This document shows, piece by piece, positions 1 through 5,968 of a stretch of 5,968 bases of DNA. Under the pieces are notes generated by a model, which did not search any database, had not been told where the DNA came from, and worked only from the letters and a program-made list of their open reading frames with translations. Source of the stretch: JBFMHD01 sp040752395 [NCBI: Candidatus Hydrogenedentota bacterium] (GTDB lineage Bacteria > JBFMHD01); NCBI GenBank assembly GCA_040752395.1, contig JBFMHD010000172.1, forward strand, positions 1 through 5,968. Direction: 5' to 3'. A program made the position numbers and the translations under genes. Position 1 is the stretch's first letter. Each line of letters opens with the position of its first letter.

Positions 1-451
1 GAATTAAATAGCCGCTTTCTGAAATACGGGGCTTAATAACCACTACATCTGTGTTAAATATTTTATTTATTTGTAATATTGTGTTTCTAATTTCGGATGT
101 CTTCTTAGTATTTTTAAAATTAAGTAGTGTTGTAGGGATTGTATTTATGTGTCTTAATTCGTATAAGTATTTATACTTATCAATATTCCAAAAAATAAAG
201 TCATAATCGTTTATCAGTTTAATGTTATTTTTTTTGAGCATTGATATTTGCTTTAAAAATTCTTGATAGTGTAAATAATAACCCCAGATGCTTTTTAAAA
301 TTACTACGTCAAAAGGTTTTGATATCTCTATGGCATTTTTCAAAGTAACGATTTCACAAGAGAATCCTTTATTTCTATAGGCGTTACGTATATAAATGTC
401 TTCCTGGATTTTCCCTACATGTTTTTCTGATGAAGTTATATATATTTTCAT
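1..451 (-). CDS. ATP-grasp domain ligase, partial (C-terminal part outside the window)
   Basis: The ATG at 449-451 opens a frame that stays open for 150 codons to the left edge, so the rest of the protein is missing. I recognise an ATP-grasp enzyme of the RimK/glutathione-synthetase-like or DcsG-like kind. There is an N-terminal pre-ATP-grasp region with DVVILKSIWGYY (48-59), then FWNIDKYKYLYEL (87-99), where these families carry a W-N-x-D-K-x-x-x-L pattern, then VVVIKPRISESG (136-147), where K140 would be the nucleotide-binding lysine. The family joins a carboxylate to an amine or similar nucleophile through an acyl phosphate, using ATP. The substrate cannot be read from this fragment. The start overlaps the stop of the upstream aminotransferase by four bases (ATGA), which argues for translational coupling and settles the start despite the absence of a Shine-Dalgarno sequence. 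Cytoplasmic; no signal peptide seen. Confidence 0.75.
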   Translation of the reverse strand, partial: MKIYITSSEKHVGKIQEDIYIRNAYRNKGFSCEIVTLKNAIEISKPFDVVILKSIWGYYLHYQEFLKQISMLKKNNIKLINDYDFIFWNIDKYKYLYELRHINTIPTTLLNFKNTKKTSEIRNTILQINKIFNTDVVVIKPRISESGYLI

Positions 452-2013
452 GTCAATAATTCTATGGATGATTTAAGGCGTAAAAAGGATTTCAATAAAT
501 CTTCGTATTTATCAAATGCGATAGTTACCCTTGCAATAAGCTGGTCTTGATTAGGCCAACAGATTGCTTTTCCAGTCAATAATTTAATATTACCTGATGT
601 ATATAAAAATTTTAGCAAAGTTGCATCATCAACTATCCTAAATCCTTTATAAGTTTTTCCAAGTAATTTACTTAAATCCAAGAGTATAAAAAAACCCGAC
701 TCTGGCTCAAGTACTATACTAATATCTTTGATACCATTCATAGTTTTTTTAATATCGAAAATAAGTCTGTTGTTTTTGATAATTTTGTTCAGCAGAATTC
801 TTTCTTTCTTATTAATTTTGTCAGTTCCTATAATAATGGCCTTCGCGAAAATATACCTTTCATAATATTTTCTGGTTATATCGGTGAAATACTTTTCTCT
901 TTCCATGAGAGCATTATTTTCCGATAAAAAAGTTGCGCCCATAGCGGCCGACTGTAATAATGATAATGAATCCAAGTTTTGAAATATTTTATCTCTTATC
1001 AAAGAAATAATCGTCTCATTAGCAATTAACATACCTGATCTTAAACCAGCTAATCCGTAAGGTTTAGAAAGAGAATATAGTGTTATAGTATTATCAAAGT
1101 GTCCCTTTAAACTGCAAATAGGTAGTACGGTAGAATTTCTATTGAATTCTAGACCAAAATAAGCCAAATCATCAATAATAAATACACCGGCATTATTGCA
1201 AATATTAGAAATTTCCAATAATAACGATTCATCTTTTTTGCTATATACAATACCAGTCGGGTTATGTGGGTTTAAATTAAGAAAAGCAGAAATTCTTGGC
1301 GGTACATCAGAATGTCTAAAAACATATCCACCCCGATTCATTTTATAATTTCGCCTAAGTTCATTGTTTGTGCTAGAAATAAGTTGTTTAAGTTCTTTCG
1401 GATTAATTTTCCAATTATTAAAGCTTGTAAGTGGCAAAAGCTTAACCTTACCTCCAATCCTTTCCGGTATGAAAGCAAAAAGCCCATAATTGGGAGCCGT
1501 CATAATGACTACATCCCCATAATCCAGTATTGTTTCCATAATAAAAGTAAACGCTTGTGTGCTTGAATGAGTAAAAATAATATTATTCTCAACAATTTCT
1601 AAATCATGAAAAATTCTAAAATATTTTATAATGGGCGCCTTATCCTTACTATCCCCCGCAGCTAGTTGATAATCAGAAAGTACTCTATTTTTCAAGGCAT
1701 GTTTTATACTCGTAATGCATCTACTAAAAGGCTTAAAACGCGCGGGGCTTCCAATTCCCAATCTTACTTTATCCACCACTGGATTTTTAAATCCTTTTAT
1801 AAGAAGGTTTGATGAAAGACTGTAATTTTCATATGCTTTAGCAGCCTCTTGTATCTCGATAGATTTCCAAGAATTCAAAAGCGTATTACCCAAGTAAGGC
1901 AGTCCACCATAAGACATTCTATTGACTTGGTTAGACGGATACATACGTATCACAGATCTTATGGATTTTGGAAAATCTTTATTTCTCACAACTTTTTGTT
2001 TATTATCCATCAT
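448..2013 (-). CDS. PLP-dependent class I/II (fold-type I) aminotransferase, long form
   Basis: The 521-residue protein has the complete active-site signature of the aspartate aminotransferase family. PNY (174-176) marks the cofactor-stacking region. NPHNPTG (248-254) carries the cofactor-binding Asn, D282 and Y285 lie in DDLAY, and K317 in SLSKPYGLAGLRSG is the Schiff-base lysine. R495 in ARVTIAF is the expected substrate-carboxylate arginine. It should move an amino group between an amino acid and a 2-oxo acid; the substrate is unknown. It is about 100 residues longer than typical members (380-430). The extra length lies in an N-terminal stretch of about 80 residues before the first core strand (RLGIGSP, 84-90), around 205-240, and around 395-435. 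The phosphate-cup motif reads THSSTQAF (148-155), with Ser where Gly is common. Two adjacent ATGs (2008-2013) could both start it. It lies 70 bp after E1-beta and overlaps the ATP-grasp start by 4 bp, so the genes are probably co-transcribed. Confidence 0.9.
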   Translation of the reverse strand: MMDNKQKVVRNKDFPKSIRSVIRMYPSNQVNRMSYGGLPYLGNTLLNSWKSIEIQEAAKAYENYSLSSNLLIKGFKNPVVDKVRLGIGSPARFKPFSRCITSIKHALKNRVLSDYQLAAGDSKDKAPIIKYFRIFHDLEIVENNIIFTHSSTQAFTFIMETILDYGDVVIMTAPNYGLFAFIPERIGGKVKLLPLTSFNNWKINPKELKQLISSTNNELRRNYKMNRGGYVFRHSDVPPRISAFLNLNPHNPTGIVYSKKDESLLLEISNICNNAGVFIIDDLAYFGLEFNRNSTVLPICSLKGHFDNTITLYSLSKPYGLAGLRSGMLIANETIISLIRDKIFQNLDSLSLLQSAAMGATFLSENNALMEREKYFTDITRKYYERYIFAKAIIIGTDKINKKERILLNKIIKNNRLIFDIKKTMNGIKDISIVLEPESGFFILLDLSKLLGKTYKGFRIVDDATLLKFLYTSGNIKLLTGKAICWPNQDQLIARVTIAFDKYEDLLKSFLRLKSSIELLT

Positions 2014-2083
2014 TTGATTTTAAAAATTTCTTTTATTTTAACTGATGTATCTCTTGATTGATTCCTAAAGAGAAGATATTCTT

Positions 2084-3130
2084 TTAAAACTTCTTTATAA
2101 TTAAATTTGGAAGAAGATGTAATTCTTCAAAAGTTAATTTACGTTTAATAGTTGGTTTATCCATCAGGCGTAACGCAGCATTTGCAATATCTATTTTTGT
2201 AGGATAATAATATTTAGTTAGTGCTGTTGAGGTGGGAACTGGAACATTAGGGCAAGAAAGCGATACTGGACTATTCTTTAGATATAATAACTTTTGTTTC
2301 GCAATGTCCGCAATAACATCTGTGCCAATACTAAAAGCGTGATTAGTAGTATCAACCGTAATAAGTCGGCCAGTTTTTTTTACTGATTTTAAAATAGTCT
2401 CGTAATCTACCGGATTTATGGAAACAAGATCTATAAGTTCTACGTCAACATGGTCACGAATTAGCTTTAAAGCTTCATATGCCGTAATCAAACCATCTCC
2501 ATAAGAAACAATTGTAAGATCTGTACCCTTTTTCACCACAACAGCTTTATCAAGTGGTTCATTATATAGTCCGGTTGGCACATCTTGTCTTAGAGAAAAA
2601 AGCCAGCGCGATTCCAAGATAACCACGGGGTTTTTGTCGCGGACTGCAGAAATAAGCAAGCCTTTCGCCATATACGGAGTAGAAGGAATTACAACCTTAA
2701 GGCCAAGTGCATTGCCAAAGAGTGAATAGAGCGCTTGTGTGTGTTGTGGGCCTTGTCCCCACTGTCGACCAATATTGATTCTGAATACAATTGGAACTGG
2801 ATGCTCGCCACCAAACATATAATTCCACTTCGCTGCCTGCGTAAAAATTTGGTCAGCAGCAAAGAGCGCAAATTCAATCCTACCGTGATGCACAATAGGA
2901 CGAAGACCTGTTATAGCTGCGCCAATAGCCATTCCTGTTATGGCATTTTCTGATTGTGGCGTTTCGATTATTCGGTAAGGATATTTTTCTTTAAGCCCAG
3001 CTGTTGTTCCGTCTGCACCGTTTTTGTATGAAACCTCAAGACCCATAACAATAACATCTTGATCAACTTCCATTATTTGATCCGTGGCTTCTTTAATTGC
3101 TTCAGTGTATTTAATAATCCTATTAGGCAT
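2084..3130 (-). CDS. 2-oxoacid dehydrogenase E1 component, beta subunit (TPP-dependent)
   Basis: With the start at 3130 the protein has 348 residues and begins MPNRIIKYTEAIKEA, as E1-beta subunits (about 325 residues) do. A longer frame opens at 3199, but its extra 23 residues lie wholly inside the E1-alpha coding end and do not resemble the family, so I prefer 3130. The first half is the transketolase-type pyrimidine-binding domain: TPQSENAITGMAIGAA (58-73), where E61 is the expected TPP-activating Glu, and GQGPQHTQALYSLF (126-139), with H130 at the conserved active-site position. PSTPYMAKGL follows, and a transketolase C-terminal domain covers roughly residues 200-320. About 20 extra residues trail the usual end. 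It should pair with the adjacent E1-alpha as an alpha2beta2 enzyme that decarboxylates a 2-oxo acid. The start overlaps the E1-alpha stop by 8 bp. The segment RIEFALFAADQIFTQAAKW (84-102) follows the E1-beta pattern, but the substrate is not evident. Confidence 0.9.
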   Translation of the reverse strand: MPNRIIKYTEAIKEATDQIMEVDQDVIVMGLEVSYKNGADGTTAGLKEKYPYRIIETPQSENAITGMAIGAAITGLRPIVHHGRIEFALFAADQIFTQAAKWNYMFGGEHPVPIVFRINIGRQWGQGPQHTQALYSLFGNALGLKVVIPSTPYMAKGLLISAVRDKNPVVILESRWLFSLRQDVPTGLYNEPLDKAVVVKKGTDLTIVSYGDGLITAYEALKLIRDHVDVELIDLVSINPVDYETILKSVKKTGRLITVDTTNHAFSIGTDVIADIAKQKLLYLKNSPVSLSCPNVPVPTSTALTKYYYPTKIDIANAALRLMDKPTIKRKLTFEELHLLPNLIIKKF

Positions 3131-4097
3131 AGAGGTTAGTGTATAAACTTTCTTTCTTTGGAAAAGGTGCCTTCTCGGCAAACATGATGGCATCAGCAAC
3201 AGTTTTTATAATATTATCTTCTGTGGCAACAATTTCGCTTTCGGAGATTCCCAAAGCGAGGATTTCTCGTCTCATCTTTGCTACTGAATCTTTTTCTTTT
3301 CTCCGTTCAGCCGTATCTTCTTCACGAGTTTCCTCCTCAAAAGTTGGCCCACTGTGTGCCATGTGGCGGTAGGTCATGCACTCAATAAGAGCAGGTTTGC
3401 CTATGCGTACTTCGGTGATAAGTTCTCTAGCTTTTATTGTTACATCTAAATAATCATTCCCGTCAGCTTTTATGTATCGTACTCCAAATCCAGTAACAAT
3501 CTTTTCGGTATCATAATCCGCAGATCGACGTTCCCAAAGACGCGTGTTAATAGATCTAAGATTATTTTCAAGAACCAAGAGTAATGGTAGTTTAAAAAGT
3601 GCTGCTAGATTTAAAGATTCACAAACACCTCCCTCTTCAAACGCGCCATCGCCTAAAAACACGACTGTTACTGTACCGCTCTTGTGATACTTTTGTTCAA
3701 ATCCACTACCACAAGAGAGAGGTACAGCACTTGAGAGAATTGGCGTCGACCCAATGAAATTAACCGATGTATCAATCAAGTGCATTGACCCACCTTTGCC
3801 ATGGGAACAACCGCATTCCTTTCCAAGTAATTCACAGACCATCTTTTTAAGATCTCCGCCTTTAGCCAGATAGTGTCCGTGTGATCGATGGTTGCTCATC
3901 ACTCGGTCGCCTTTCTGTAATGCATCGCAGATGCCCACCGCTACTGCTTCCTGGCCAATATAGAAATGGACAAGACTCATTATATTATTCTTAAGATAGT
4001 AAGCTGCTATTTGCTCTTCTGTTGTTCGAATAAGGAACATTTTTTTATAGGCGGCAATCCTTTCTGTGGTTCCGATTAATATTTTTTTGTTTTTCAT
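3123..4097 (-). CDS. 2-oxoacid dehydrogenase E1 component, alpha subunit (TPP-dependent)
   Basis: The 324-residue protein is full length for bacterial pyruvate/acetoin-type E1-alpha. It has YIGQEAVAVG (46-55), NHRSHGHYLAKG (69-80) and SHGKGGSMHL (98-107). The thiamine-diphosphate/Mg motif is intact: GDG at 149-151, then 26 residues, then NN at 178-179. YRHMAHSGP (243-251) matches the conserved His-Ser loop near the active site. The family decarboxylates a 2-oxo acid on TPP and normally passes the acyl group to the lipoyl arm of an E2. No E2 or E3 gene lies in the window, so complex membership is unproven. I keep the ATG at 4097 because the LxxYKKMFLIRTTEEQ-type first helix is a family feature; M20 is a less likely alternative. 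No clear Shine-Dalgarno is present. This is the first gene of the four-gene cluster, and an extended -10 lies about 95 bp upstream. Confidence 0.93.
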   Translation of the reverse strand: MKNKKILIGTTERIAAYKKMFLIRTTEEQIAAYYLKNNIMSLVHFYIGQEAVAVGICDALQKGDRVMSNHRSHGHYLAKGGDLKKMVCELLGKECGCSHGKGGSMHLIDTSVNFIGSTPILSSAVPLSCGSGFEQKYHKSGTVTVVFLGDGAFEEGGVCESLNLAALFKLPLLLVLENNLRSINTRLWERRSADYDTEKIVTGFGVRYIKADGNDYLDVTIKARELITEVRIGKPALIECMTYRHMAHSGPTFEEETREEDTAERRKEKDSVAKMRREILALGISESEIVATEDNIIKTVADAIMFAEKAPFPKKESLYTNLYA

Positions 4098-4132
4098 AGT
4101 ATTTTTGAATCTTTTTAAAAAATTTATTATTC

Positions 4133-4152
4133 TTACCTTGAATTACGAAATT
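4133..4152 (+). repeat. AATTACGAAATT repeat, copy 1
   Basis: This reads TTACCTTGAATTACGAAATT. TTGAAT (4138-4143), a 16-nt spacer and TACCAT (4160-4165) give it a weak promoter shape on the plus strand. A hairpin starts about 6 nt further on. The core AATTACGAAATT is close to a palindrome (AATTWCGWAATT). Confidence 0.8.
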
Positions 4153-4170
4153 AAGTTGATACCATGAAAG

Positions 4171-4191
4171 TACAGGATTATTCTGTATTTT
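4171..4191 (+). repeat. Hairpin TACAGGA/TTCTGTA with T-tract
   Basis: Positions 4171-4177 pair with 4181-4187 (one G-U pair, 3-nt loop), followed by TTTTC-like sequence. It sits downstream of repeat copy 1, just as the TACAGGGTAT hairpin sits downstream of copy 3, so repeat and hairpin form a module. It is weak as a terminator. Confidence 0.5.
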
Positions 4192-4192
4192 C

Positions 4193-4201
4193 ATTATACC
4201 A
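4193..4201 (-). promoter_or_regulatory. Candidate extended -10 promoter for the E1-alpha cluster
   Basis: Read on the minus strand, this is TGG followed by a perfect TATAAT. No convincing -35 lies 16-18 bp upstream, which fits an extended -10 promoter. It would give a leader of roughly 90 nt before the E1-alpha ATG, and that leader would begin inside the 4171-4187 hairpin and then cross repeat copy 1. AT-rich DNA produces such hexamers by chance, so this is a suggestion only. Confidence 0.4.
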
Positions 4202-4240
4202 ATTTATTCTCTAACAGGACTTACGGCGCCTTGAAAAGAT

Positions 4241-4270
4241 AGCGTATTGACAATGTAATCAGCGTATTGA
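4241..4270 (+). repeat. Direct repeat AGCGTATTGA, two copies at 20-bp period
   Basis: AGCGTATTGA occurs at 4241-4250 and 4261-4270, separated by CAATGTAATC. The 20-bp period is about two helical turns, which would put both copies on one face of the helix. Just before it lies CAGGACTTACG (4215-4225), which reminds me of ends of some insertion sequences or miniature elements. I cannot confirm that, so no element is assigned. Confidence 0.6.
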
Positions 4271-4292
4271 AACCCATAACTGCATTTCTGTT

Positions 4293-4312
4293 TTACCCCC
4301 AATTACGAAATT
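4293..4312 (+). repeat. AATTACGAAATT repeat, copy 2 (diverged)
   Basis: TTACCCCCAATTACGAAATT matches copy 1 at 17 of 20 positions; CCC replaces TTG, which removes the -35-like hexamer. A TATGAT (4320-4325) still lies at the same 16-nt spacing. The copy starts 160 bp after copy 1. Confidence 0.7.
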
Positions 4313-4336
4313 CAAAAAATATGATTTTTAACCCAT

Positions 4337-4380
4337 ATTAAACCAATACTGAAACTAAAATTCACAATTAAACCAATACT
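4337..4380 (+). repeat. Direct repeat ATTAAACCAATACT, two copies at 30-bp period
   Basis: The 14-mer occurs identically at 4337-4350 and 4367-4380, and similarity runs a few bases further (GAAA against AAAA). Function unknown. Confidence 0.7.
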
Positions 4381-4389
4381 AAAAACACT

Positions 4390-4444
4390 CTGAATGTAAA
4401 TTCAGTTTCTAATTTTTTTAAAAATATTATATTTTTAAAAAAAT
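4390..4444. repeat. Short hairpin plus 33-bp AT-only palindrome
   Basis: CTGAAT-GTAA-ATTCAG (4390-4405) is a perfect 6-bp stem-loop. Immediately after it, 4412-4427 and 4429-4444 are exact reverse complements around a single central T, made only of A and T. Such a perfect AT palindrome can extrude as a cruciform or act as a protein-binding site. It ends 11 bp before repeat copy 3. Confidence 0.65.
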
Positions 4445-4451
4445 AAATATC

Positions 4452-4471
4452 ACACCTTGAATTACGAAATT
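4452..4471 (+). repeat. AATTACGAAATT repeat, copy 3, with promoter shape
   Basis: CCTTGAATTACGAAATT (4455-4471) is identical to copy 1, but preceded by ACA instead of TTA. It has the best promoter shape of the four: TTGAAT (4457-4462), 16-nt spacer, TGG then TATTAT (4479-4484). A palindrome follows 7-9 nt later. It starts 159 bp after copy 2. No plus-strand gene follows, so a transcript from here would be a very short RNA or an operator-controlled non-coding RNA. Confidence 0.75.
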
Positions 4472-4490
4472 AATTTGGTATTATAAAAAT

Positions 4491-4509
4491 TACAGGGTAT
4501 ACCCTTTTT
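4491..4509 (+). terminator. Weak hairpin with T-run (AGGGTATACCCT palindrome)
   Basis: AGGGTATACCCT (4494-4505) is a perfect 12-bp palindrome followed by T residues to 4509. As RNA it gives only a 4-bp stem with a TATA loop, so it may be a protein-binding palindrome instead. The leading TTACAGGGTAT recurs exactly 50 bp downstream, in a stronger terminator. Confidence 0.35.
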
Positions 4510-4541
4510 CTTTTCTCTCTTTTCTTTTAATTTGGTTATTT

Positions 4542-4566
4542 ACAGGGTATAATCCCTGTTTTTTTA
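4542..4566 (+). terminator. Rho-independent terminator-like hairpin, plus strand
   Basis: ACAGGG (4542-4547) pairs with CCCTGT (4554-4559) around a 6-nt loop and is followed by a run of six T. It works only in the plus direction, yet no plus-strand gene precedes it. The only likely input is transcription starting at repeat copy 3, which would give an RNA of about 75 nt. Confidence 0.55.
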
Positions 4567-4671
4567 TATCATGCAAATCCAAATAAAGGTTTACAATGAT
4601 ATATTAAACAAAGTAAAAATTATTTGCAACCCTTAATCTTTTAAAAATTCATACCTTGTAATCTCACAAGC

Positions 4672-4731
4672 ACATTTAGATAATCAAGATTAAAATGTGA
4701 TTCTTTTTGATTTTTTTGATTAGCTAAATGT
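4672..4731. repeat. Long imperfect inverted repeat, 18-nt arms
   Basis: Positions 4672-4689 pair with 4714-4731 (16 Watson-Crick pairs, one G-T, one mismatch) around a 24-nt loop. An alternative 7-bp pairing, CACATTT (4671-4677) with AAATGTG (4693-4699), uses the same left arm and excludes the first fold. It lies 15 bp inside the right end of the candidate element. The rest of 4571-4671 shows nothing I can assign. Confidence 0.45.
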
Positions 4732-4745
4732 TTTTATGAGAAAGC

Positions 4746-4765
4746 AATTTCGTAATTCAAGGTTA
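4746..4765 (-). repeat. AATTACGAAATT repeat, copy 4 (inverted)
   Basis: This is the exact reverse complement of the 17-bp copy-1 core plus TTA. On the minus strand TTGAAT is followed after 16 nt by CATAAA (4733-4738), so it could direct transcription leftward, but the match to -10 is weak. Its outer TTA supplies an in-frame TAA to the broken nuclease frame. Confidence 0.75.
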
Positions 4766-5035
4766 ACTACCTAACCAATTAAGATATGAGAGGGCTTGGA
4801 TAATTGCCTCGTTTTGTTCGCCCCATTTATATTAAATAATAACTGGTGAATTATTTTCATCTAATCCCAAGGCGTCTATTCTTCCACTATCGGTGATAAC
4901 TTCTGGAGCTATATAACGAATACCAAAAATATCTTCTAAATTATCATCAATGAGATTTTGTAGTTCTTTCTCATTTCTAAAGTTTGACGCTTTAATCTGG
5001 CTTGTTTTGTTGTTTTGGATTTTAAAAATTGGCAT
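4763..5035 (-). pseudogene. Broken PD-(D/E)XK nuclease-like gene (COG3586/NucS-like N-terminus)
   Basis: The frame from ATG 5033-5035 gives 67 residues (MPIFKIQNNK to NNSPVII), then TAA at 4832-4834. Reading through, the same frame continues YKWGEQNEAIIQALSYLNWLGS to a TAA at 4763-4765. The N-terminus (NEKELQNLIDDNLEDIFGIR) and GRIDALGLDEN...VII[E]YK resemble a family of uncharacterised proteins with a PD-(D/E)XK-like fold, as I remember them. D54 and the expected E68-x-K70 would be the metal-binding and catalytic residues. The first stop stands exactly at E68, a one-base change from GAA. The second end coincides with the repeat boundary, and the rest of the usual, much longer protein is absent. 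It starts 2 bp after the XRE stop, so the two were presumably one operon, perhaps a regulator with a nuclease-type defence protein. A short, still expressed fragment cannot be excluded. Confidence 0.65.
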
Positions 5036-5037
5036 AG

Positions 5038-5250
5038 TTATTTAATTAAATCATCAACCGCTACGCCTAATGCTTTGGCGATTTTTGATAATGTTTCAAT
5101 GGTCGGATTTTTATTTCCGCCAGATTCAATCTTGATAATCGTATTATAGGTAACATCGGCTAATTTTGAGAGCCGATCTTGAGAAATACCCATTTTATTG
5201 CGGTATTTCTTGATATTTTCAGCGATTGTGGATTTATTGTATGACTTCAT
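5038..5250 (-). CDS. XRE-family helix-turn-helix transcriptional regulator
   Basis: This 70-residue protein is a single Cro/C1-type HTH domain (HTH_3) with almost nothing else. IAENIKKYRNKMGISQDRLSKLADVTYNTIIKIESG runs from residue 9 to 44, with the recognition helix around VTYNTIIKIE (33-42). NPTIETLSKIAKALGVAVDDLIK closes the domain at the C-terminus. It should bind operator DNA as a dimer. Inverted repeats at its own start (5247-5308 and 5258-5279) suggest autoregulation. The two-base gap to the following nuclease-like gene suggests control of that gene too. Solitary XRE proteins of this size also act as antitoxins or control proteins of restriction systems; with the partner broken, its present role is open. 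No Shine-Dalgarno is visible upstream of the ATG (5248-5250). Confidence 0.9.
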   Translation of the reverse strand: MKSYNKSTIAENIKKYRNKMGISQDRLSKLADVTYNTIIKIESGGNKNPTIETLSKIAKALGVAVDDLIK

Positions 5251-5679: not shown

Positions 5680-5751
5680 AGCGGGAGACGGGACTCGAAC
5701 CCGCGATCTTCTCGTTGGCAACGAGACATTCTACCACTGAACTACTCCCGC
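5680..5751 (-). tRNA. tRNA-Gly (anticodon GCC)
   Basis: The minus strand folds as a full cloverleaf. The acceptor stem is GCGGGAG with CTCCCGC, the D arm starts GTTCAGTGGTAGAA, and the anticodon stem TCTCG/CGAGA carries the loop TTGCCAA, giving GCC. The T arm is GCGGG-TTCGAGT-CCCGT. The discriminator base is T, as expected for bacterial tRNA-Gly. The bases after it read TCA rather than CCA, so the CCA end is not encoded and must be added by CCA nucleotidyltransferase. Downstream, an imperfect stem followed by six T (about 5655-5676) might terminate it, weakly. Confidence 0.96.
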
Positions 5752-5835: not shown

Positions 5836-5968
5836 TCAATCACTTGCGCTTGACGGGTACATTGGTAACACTTTTTGATGTTGAAAATGAAATTCTACGG
5901 GTGTCTGATATCCAAGAGATTGGTGAGGTCTATTGAAGTCGTATTCAATTAACCATTCAGTTAAATTC
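5836..5968 (-). CDS. IS transposase, C-terminal fragment (integrase-core, IS3/IS481-like), partial
   Basis: The frame enters from the right edge and stops with TGA at 5836-5838, giving the last 44 codons. LTEWLIEYDFNRPHQSLGYQ followed by TPVEF is the hallmark C-terminal end of DDE (rve) integrase-type transposases of the IS3/IS481 group: the last core helix with N-R-P-H-Q-x-L, then G-Y-x-T-P. The tail HQKVLPMYPSSASD is Ser-rich. The catalytic residues, the start and any orfA partner lie outside the window, so it is unknown whether the element is intact. It marks a recently or formerly mobile region next to the tRNA. Confidence 0.85.
   Translation of the reverse strand, partial: NLTEWLIEYDFNRPHQSLGYQTPVEFHFQHQKVLPMYPSSASD

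Follow-up and report, generated by a model that had tools for sequence, protein, structure and literature searches.

We analyzed positions 1-5968 of contig JBFMHD010000172.1 (assembly GCA_040752395.1; 5,968 nt, hereafter the window), recorded as from a Candidatus Hydrogenedentota bacterium. Its positions 2-4097 hold a run of four genes, all on the minus strand, for the two subunits of a thiamine diphosphate (ThDP)-dependent E1 2-oxo acid dehydrogenase, an aminotransferase, and an ATP-grasp enzyme. From gene content, the absence of E2 in relatives, clade membership, motifs, and the conservation of each part elsewhere, the run looks like two neighboring modules, not one pathway. Module A would be an alphaKADH2-type orphan E1, which works outside any dehydrogenase complex, and module B an amino-acid-coupling unit. 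We put the probability of this reading at roughly 0.55. The genes are laid out as follows.

3123-4097, minus strand: E1-alpha, 324 aa; PF00676, E=1.2e-58

2084-3130, minus strand: E1-beta, 348 aa; PF02779 and PF02780

2014-2083, minus strand: 70-bp gap from E1-beta to the aminotransferase gene, the boundary of modules A and B

448-2013, minus strand: class I/II pyridoxal phosphate (PLP) aminotransferase, 521 aa; PF00155, E=1.1e-25

2-451, minus strand: DcsG-like ATP-grasp enzyme, N-terminal half (150 aa); the frame is cut by the edge of the window

The original prediction, made from the sequence alone, described four consecutive minus-strand genes overlapping at two of three junctions, and the coordinates agree: the E1 genes share 8 bp (3123-3130), the aminotransferase and ATP-grasp genes share 4 bp (448-451), and the third junction is the 70-bp gap. 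We took the ATG at 3130 as the E1-beta start; the open reading frame (ORF) list begins at a TTG at 3199. It was also correct that no E2, E3, or lipoyl gene lies within the visible window. Three of the four genes (E1-alpha, E1-beta, and the aminotransferase) have strong family matches, and the identity of the ATP-grasp gene was confirmed via full-length orthologues.

Alignments, including one of E1-alpha with human pyruvate dehydrogenase, show that the E1 pair keeps its ThDP and active-site motifs. E1-alpha has the GDG...NN ThDP motif and a loop, YRHMAHS, that is common to a Patescibacteria clade and, in the motif table, sets the window protein and its close relatives apart from other E1-alpha proteins. 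E1-beta retains a Glu (ETPQSE) and a His (QHTQ), which we take to be active-site residues. Both subunits miss the curated NCBIfam cut-offs, with 279.7 vs 393.85 bits for E1-alpha (TIGR03182) and 263.2 vs 321 bits for E1-beta.

The closest relatives of this E1 come from Patescibacteria; by this kinship, the window would probably be of patescibacterial origin as well. A scan of genome contigs returned six relatives, with E1-alpha 55-70% identical; by record title, one is from a Patescibacteria group and four are Lipton-, Kaiser-, Taylor-, and Adlerbacteria, which NCBI taxonomy places in the Patescibacteria group, making five of six. In three overlapping genome samples, E1-alpha matched 11 of 379 genomes at the phylum level (E<=1e-10), 6 of 383 at the class level (E<=1e-80), and 3 of 244 at the order level (E<=1e-80), while a single-protein pattern scan of a viral contig collection found no relatives. 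We read 11 distinct close loci (L001-L006, L024, L025, L063, L064, and L070). A Zn-alcohol dehydrogenase (ADH) gene adjoins E1-alpha in all of them: directly upstream in nine, fused in L006, and divergent in L070, with a short-chain dehydrogenase/reductase gene between. The ten other ADHs are 57-70% identical to that of L001. The L006 fusion (8867-10939) encodes one 690-aa protein, a hint that the two enzymes act together in this clade.

Sugar genes, particularly of the heptose type, surround these pairs. By tblastn, an RfaE-I-like kinase is present in 8 of the 11 loci (22-26% identity in six of the eight), HldC in seven, and GmhA in six; all scores behind these family names are below the curated cut-offs, narrowly so for GmhA (201.5 vs 209) and HldC (177 vs 181.5). 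Seven of the first eight close loci carry an NAD-epimerase cluster, and L070 has consecutive genes for the kinase, an epimerase, a GmhB-like haloacid dehalogenase (assigned by eye), GmhA, and HldC. At the other extreme, a weak kinase match is the sole sugar marker in L063, as far as tested. In L003, L004, L005, L024, and L070, the gene directly after E1-beta encodes a short, divergent RfaE-I-like kinase of 246-295 aa that shares 22-25% identity with its L001 counterpart.

Phylogeny separates these pairs from those linked to E2. The first tree, of 34 E1 pairs, places the window in a clade of 12 (support 100), with eight ADH loci, two other loci of Patescibacteria, and a heptose-type locus of Azospirillum oryzae; another clade (support 96) holds 14 pairs, including all the E2-linked ones. 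For the second tree, of 40 pairs, eight were added and two dropped: L027, where the ORF taken as E1-beta is not one, and L032, the second E1 pair of genome G001, which has a long branch and lacks the Trp-Gly motif described next. Here the window clade has 15 members (support 100) and sits within a wider orphan group of 23. Judging from these trees, the window's place in its clade is secure, but the limits of the wider orphan group are not.

In E1-beta, the Trp-Gly motif (GRQWGQGPQHTQ in the window) shortly precedes the catalytic His. It is found in 23/23 orphan-group E1-beta sequences vs 1/17 others in the second tree. An E2 or lipoyl gene adjoins 12 of those 17 pairs, and none of the 12 has Trp-Gly. 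The stretches seen around L033, L040, L041, L080, and L081 (the last unannotated) contain no E2 or lipoyl gene.

Orphan-group pairs also occur on plasmids. On Solidesulfovibrio pDMC1, the pair is found with an HddA-like kinase and an HddC-like nucleotidyltransferase (both below cut-off) and a DegT aminotransferase. An Azospirillum oryzae plasmid has the pair with a PfkB-type gene, one end of which matches HldC, a SIS gene matching GmhA, and two DegT aminotransferases; three further Azospirillum plasmids have it with DegT aminotransferases. A Streptomyces plasmid E1 pair sits in a natural-product region.

The original prediction proposed checking whether the four-gene set recurs in the absence of E2 and E3. 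The relatives of the E1 pair are E2-free. The E2 family PF00198 was found in none of the 15 genomes that carry an orphan-group pair (G001-G007, G056, G156, G184, G245, G254, G678, G683, and G835); these counts concern relatives' genomes, and E3 was not searched for. Among 16 Patescibacteria genomes with E1 matches, three have PF00198 (G010, G025, and G127), in each case directly beside an E1 pair outside the orphan group (L034, L031, and L035). Biotin_lipoyl exceeds its cut-off in the same three of 16 only and falls below it in G005, G006, and G302; G302, whose E1 is on a long branch outside the orphan group, has no E2. PF00198 was also absent from four further genomes, one of which is the module-B genome G775, and was found in 10 of 14 control genomes.

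How might such an E1 work? In our proposal, ThDP would decarboxylate a 2-oxo acid, with pyruvate the likeliest substrate, and the hydroxyethyl-ThDP so formed would be passed to the carbonyl of a sugar intermediate (a keto sugar or one from the heptose pathway), so that a surface sugar gains a C2 branch or a C2 extension. The Zn-ADH next to E1-alpha in the relatives may serve either to reduce the acetyl group thus added or to generate the keto acceptor. There is precedent in antibiotic biosynthesis. A review (PMC12247030) describes alphaKADH2 as E1 pairs that place a pyruvate-derived C2 branch on keto sugars of antibiotics, where the branch may be reduced, oxidized, methylated, or transaminated. 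In two further papers (PMC4753412, PMC4425429), AviB1/AviB2 and Pau11/Pau12 are proposed as such pairs, and ketoreduction of the acetyl branch is shown or proposed as the next step. By analogy, the pairing of an E2-free E1 with an ADH gene among sugar genes fits a scheme of C2 branching and ketoreduction.

The window pair shares its two-gene E1-alpha/E1-beta makeup with the alphaKADH2 set as described there (the aldgamycin alphaKADH2, KbDH-alpha/beta, AviB1/AviB2, and Pau11/Pau12), whose members act on sugars in place of serving a dehydrogenase complex, a likeness that we propose for the window from context. In contrast to that set, which belongs to antibiotic clusters, the window's relatives are in Patescibacteria sugar or heptose loci with Zn-ADH. 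The review credits YerE-like enzymes with the branching of lipopolysaccharide and ties alphaKADH2 chiefly to specialized products (PMC12247030), so an alphaKADH2 that acts on surface sugars in Patescibacteria would go beyond the roles described; we found no description of one in the literature searched. YerE, which makes the C2 branch of yersiniose in O-antigens, resembles the window E1 in the chemistry and the cell-surface role that we propose for the latter, but it is a single thiamine pyrophosphate-dependent flavoprotein (PMC4753412). The E1 of PdhAB and AcoAB complexes belongs to the same families, with conserved ThDP and active-site motifs and a TIGR03182 score for the window of 280 bits, below 394. 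Unlike those complexes, the window's relatives have no E2 in their genomes, both trees place the window well away from the branches of the acetoin and pyruvate complexes, and Trp-Gly is in 0/12 E1-beta of the type with an adjoining E2 or lipoyl gene.

Several observations weigh against this view of module A. The sugar-gene neighborhood is seen around relatives' E1 pairs, whereas the visible window has neither their alcohol dehydrogenase nor their heptose genes, and the heptose association could mean a ketol-transfer role. The likeness to AviB1/B2, Pau11/12, and KbDH rests on descriptions, not sequence kinship. Support for the orphan group of 23 in the second tree is 78, or 95 without Solidesulfovibrio, and the best-supported split there (100) groups L033-L035, of which two are E2-linked, with the orphan pairs. 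Trp-Gly is present in a "pyruvate dehydrogenase" pair of Azospirillum oryzae outside the orphan group (L080, 3028-4972), near which no E2 appears in the stretch shown, and it is missing from L032, the second pair of G001. The E2-bearing genome G127 has a lone orphan-like E1-alpha (L027, 2182-3180; 42% identical to that of the window) with orphan-like motifs and no E1-beta seen beside it; the E2 of this genome adjoins another E1 pair. Finally, E2 absence from any one genome is weak evidence, as genome completeness is not given, though the overall pattern is stronger.

The heptose genes and Zn-ADH next to the close relatives also leave some room for a different E1 role, which we consider improbable, though the best of the alternatives. 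Here the pair would be a ketol- or aldehyde-forming backbone enzyme, either a split-transketolase-like supplier of heptose precursors beside GmhA, HldC, and the RfaE-I-like kinase, or an E2-free pyruvate decarboxylase feeding the ADH. Within the orphan-E1 stretch, L001 (3227-4989) and L030 (7992-9760) have a separate two-subunit transketolase (by eye). A second transketolase for the same step is unlikely because these loci already carry one, and simple fermentation leaves the sugar context unexplained. In addition, the window E1-alpha scores 199 bits against E1_dh vs 22 bits against Transketolase_N.

Turning to module B, the window holds its first gene and half of its second. The aminotransferase scores 91 bits against PF00155 (cut-off 19.7). 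NPHNPTG, DDLAY, K317, and R495, which are presumably PLP-site elements, are invariant in three aminotransferase orthologues; the AlphaFold model of the window protein is unusable (predicted local distance difference test score, 32). The 150-aa ATP-grasp fragment has no Pfam match. Its best model is that of DcsG, the D-cycloserine synthetase, far below the equivalog cut-off of 360 bits: 40 bits (E=1.9e-10) for the NCBIfam model against the window fragment and 54 bits against the full-length orthologue in locus L069. DcsG is also the only PDB profile match of the ATP-grasp protein at E<=0.1 (E=0.015).

Close relatives of module B came from two Patescibacteria genomes. The aminotransferase matched 3 of 244 genomes in the order sample (E<=1e-8); of these matches, the G775 protein (locus L069) is an orthologue over its full length, with 66% identity across 521 residues. 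The class sample yielded one genome in 295 at E<=1e-30, G643 (locus L077), with 59% identity to the window protein. The 379-genome phylum sample gave no close relative, with one ordinary aminotransferase matched. We rejected the G255 aminotransferase (26% identity) as an ordinary one beside a phosphoenolpyruvate-carboxykinase-like ORF (by eye), and likewise the plasmid aminotransferases, ordinary enzymes at 19-25% identity among the best 20 of 316 records, with one neighborhood read. Single-protein pattern scans found no relatives of the aminotransferase in the genome-contig or viral contig collections and none of the L069 ATP-grasp enzyme in the viral one. On plasmids, the window ATP-grasp fragment had no match at 1e-5, and the L077 orthologue had four, at 23-27% identity.

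G775 and G643 share one gene order: the aminotransferase, a 293-aa DcsG-like ATP-grasp enzyme, a Nudix protein, and an L-amino-acid-ligase-type ATP-grasp enzyme. The first two genes overlap by 4 bp in the window and in L069 and are separated by 1 bp in L077. The Nudix part is a 150-aa protein in L069, and in L077 (11726-13012) it forms the C-terminal end of a protein of 428 aa. That protein has an extra 270-aa N-terminal domain, absent from the L069 orthologue, which by eye only resembles an Fe(II)/2-oxoglutarate oxygenase (best PDB match, E=0.058; Pfam finds nothing there). The fourth gene, outside the window, exceeds the PF18603 cut-off in L069 only and is just under that of PF13535 in both loci; its PDB matches include L-amino-acid ligases, among them BacD.

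The suggestion that the aminotransferase and ATP-grasp genes form a biosynthetic unit is thus supported by their conservation in two other genomes. The combination of one aminotransferase and two ATP-grasp enzymes is suggestive of a product that is an amino-acid amide or resembles a dipeptide; the module would make an amino acid and then couple it to yield a small compound of this sort. BacF is the aminotransferase of the bacilysin-type pathway, and BacF/BacD parallels module B in combining an aminotransferase with an L-amino-acid-ligase-type ATP-grasp enzyme. Module B differs in its extra DcsG-like ATP-grasp and Nudix genes, and no anticapsin genes are seen beside it.

Do the two modules belong together? 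We sought module-B genes in 31 of the 41 E1 loci read, including the 11 closest and leaving aside the first ten complex-type or TRAP-linked plasmid references (L008, L038, L040-L044, and L046-L048). None of the 31 has the aminotransferase, and none has any other module-B gene. Conversely, no E1 pair is present in L069 or L077, and G775 and G643 have only partial PF00676 matches elsewhere, over 115 of 300 model positions at 29.7 bits and over 112 at 25.9 bits, respectively (cut-off 22). The four genes are therefore not a conserved set, and the window is so far the single case of an E1 pair adjacent to module B. This tells against the original prediction of a chain from E1 through the aminotransferase to the ligase, which named as its own refutation that the four genes never occur together in homologous loci; in those that could be searched, they never did. 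Its idea that the E1 may turn a 2-oxo acid into a condensed carbonyl product fares better, given E2-free relatives, their sugar loci, and the job described for the analogues; it is the onward path to the aminotransferase and ligase that lacks support.

Some features of the window do favor a single pathway, in which an acyloin or branched carbonyl formed by E1 would be aminated by the aminotransferase and ligated by the ATP-grasp enzyme. All four genes are on the same strand with 8-bp and 4-bp overlaps, a consensus scan of the 70-bp gap listed no terminator-like or promoter-like match, and, according to the review, an alphaKADH2 branch is transaminated in kibdelomycin (PMC12247030). Given the shared strand and short gap, co-transcription across the modules is possible. 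GC content steps from 0.384 and 0.409 in the E1 genes to 0.317 in the aminotransferase and 0.262 in the ATP-grasp gene. We dropped this step as a sign of different origin, since GC at third codon positions is too alike: 0.266 in E1-beta and 0.255 in the aminotransferase on either side of the gap (0.338 in E1-alpha and 0.267 in the ATP-grasp gene), so that composition gives no argument for a recent join. The distribution in relatives nevertheless makes a common pathway doubtful, with module-B genes in none of the E1 loci tested, no full-length E1-alpha match in either module-B genome, and Nudix and amino-acid-ligase-type genes as the partners of module B elsewhere. A variant, which we regard as somewhat more speculative still, is that the window lineage recruited a Trp-Gly-marked, E2-free, C2-branching or C2-extending E1 of heptose-type surface sugars beside a peptide-type module, so that the branched carbonyl would be aminated and amide-linked.

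To the right of E1-alpha, the window contains the following.

4100-4770: AT-rich stretch (24-26% GC) upstream of E1-alpha, with copies of ACCTTGAATTACGAAATT

4832-5035: NucS-like (NucS_C) fragment, 67 aa; under the Pfam cut-off

5038-5250: Xre-type helix-turn-helix gene, adjoining the NucS-like fragment

5680-5751: tRNA-Gly(gcc)

5869-5967: IS3-type transposase (rve_3), C-terminal end only, truncated by the edge of the window

The ACCTTGAATTACGAAATT copies are direct at 4135 and 4454 and inverted at 4746-4763, and the stretch resembles the ends of a miniature inverted-repeat transposable element or an insertion remnant. The NucS_C-like fragment and Xre gene (4832-5250) look like a mobile or defense remnant. 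A 40-base window stretch had no match in the viral contig collection. These elements, the missing ADH, and the unique gene pairing could be expected of a decaying or chimeric junction, where the E1 part of a sugar locus was joined to a separate locus by mobile elements or misassembly. We think this quite unlikely, as the four frames are open with conserved motifs, the overlaps are tidy, and third-position GC is similar across the gap. That the E1 pair instead uses a distant E2/E3 of the same genome is very improbable: although the E2 evidence comes from relatives' genomes, not the window's own, and G127 combines an orphan-like E1-alpha with an E2 (beside another E1 pair), PF00198 is missing from all the orphan-pair genomes, yet was detected in three other Patescibacteria and most controls, and sub-cut-off Biotin_lipoyl matches are all that G005, G006, and G302 offer.

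Under the two-module reading, these genes bear on how genomes of such bacteria are annotated. E1 genes are easily annotated as pyruvate dehydrogenase where the complex is absent. Clade membership, a Zn-ADH neighbor, and a short motif separate the orphan E1 from the complex-linked E1, and such markers would avoid the wrong inference that Patescibacteria make acetyl-CoA from pyruvate, while making the proposed sugar chemistry testable. To our knowledge, few small-molecule pathways have been recognized in bacteria with reduced genomes. The unit of aminotransferase, ATP-grasp, Nudix, and amino-acid-ligase genes would be one such pathway.

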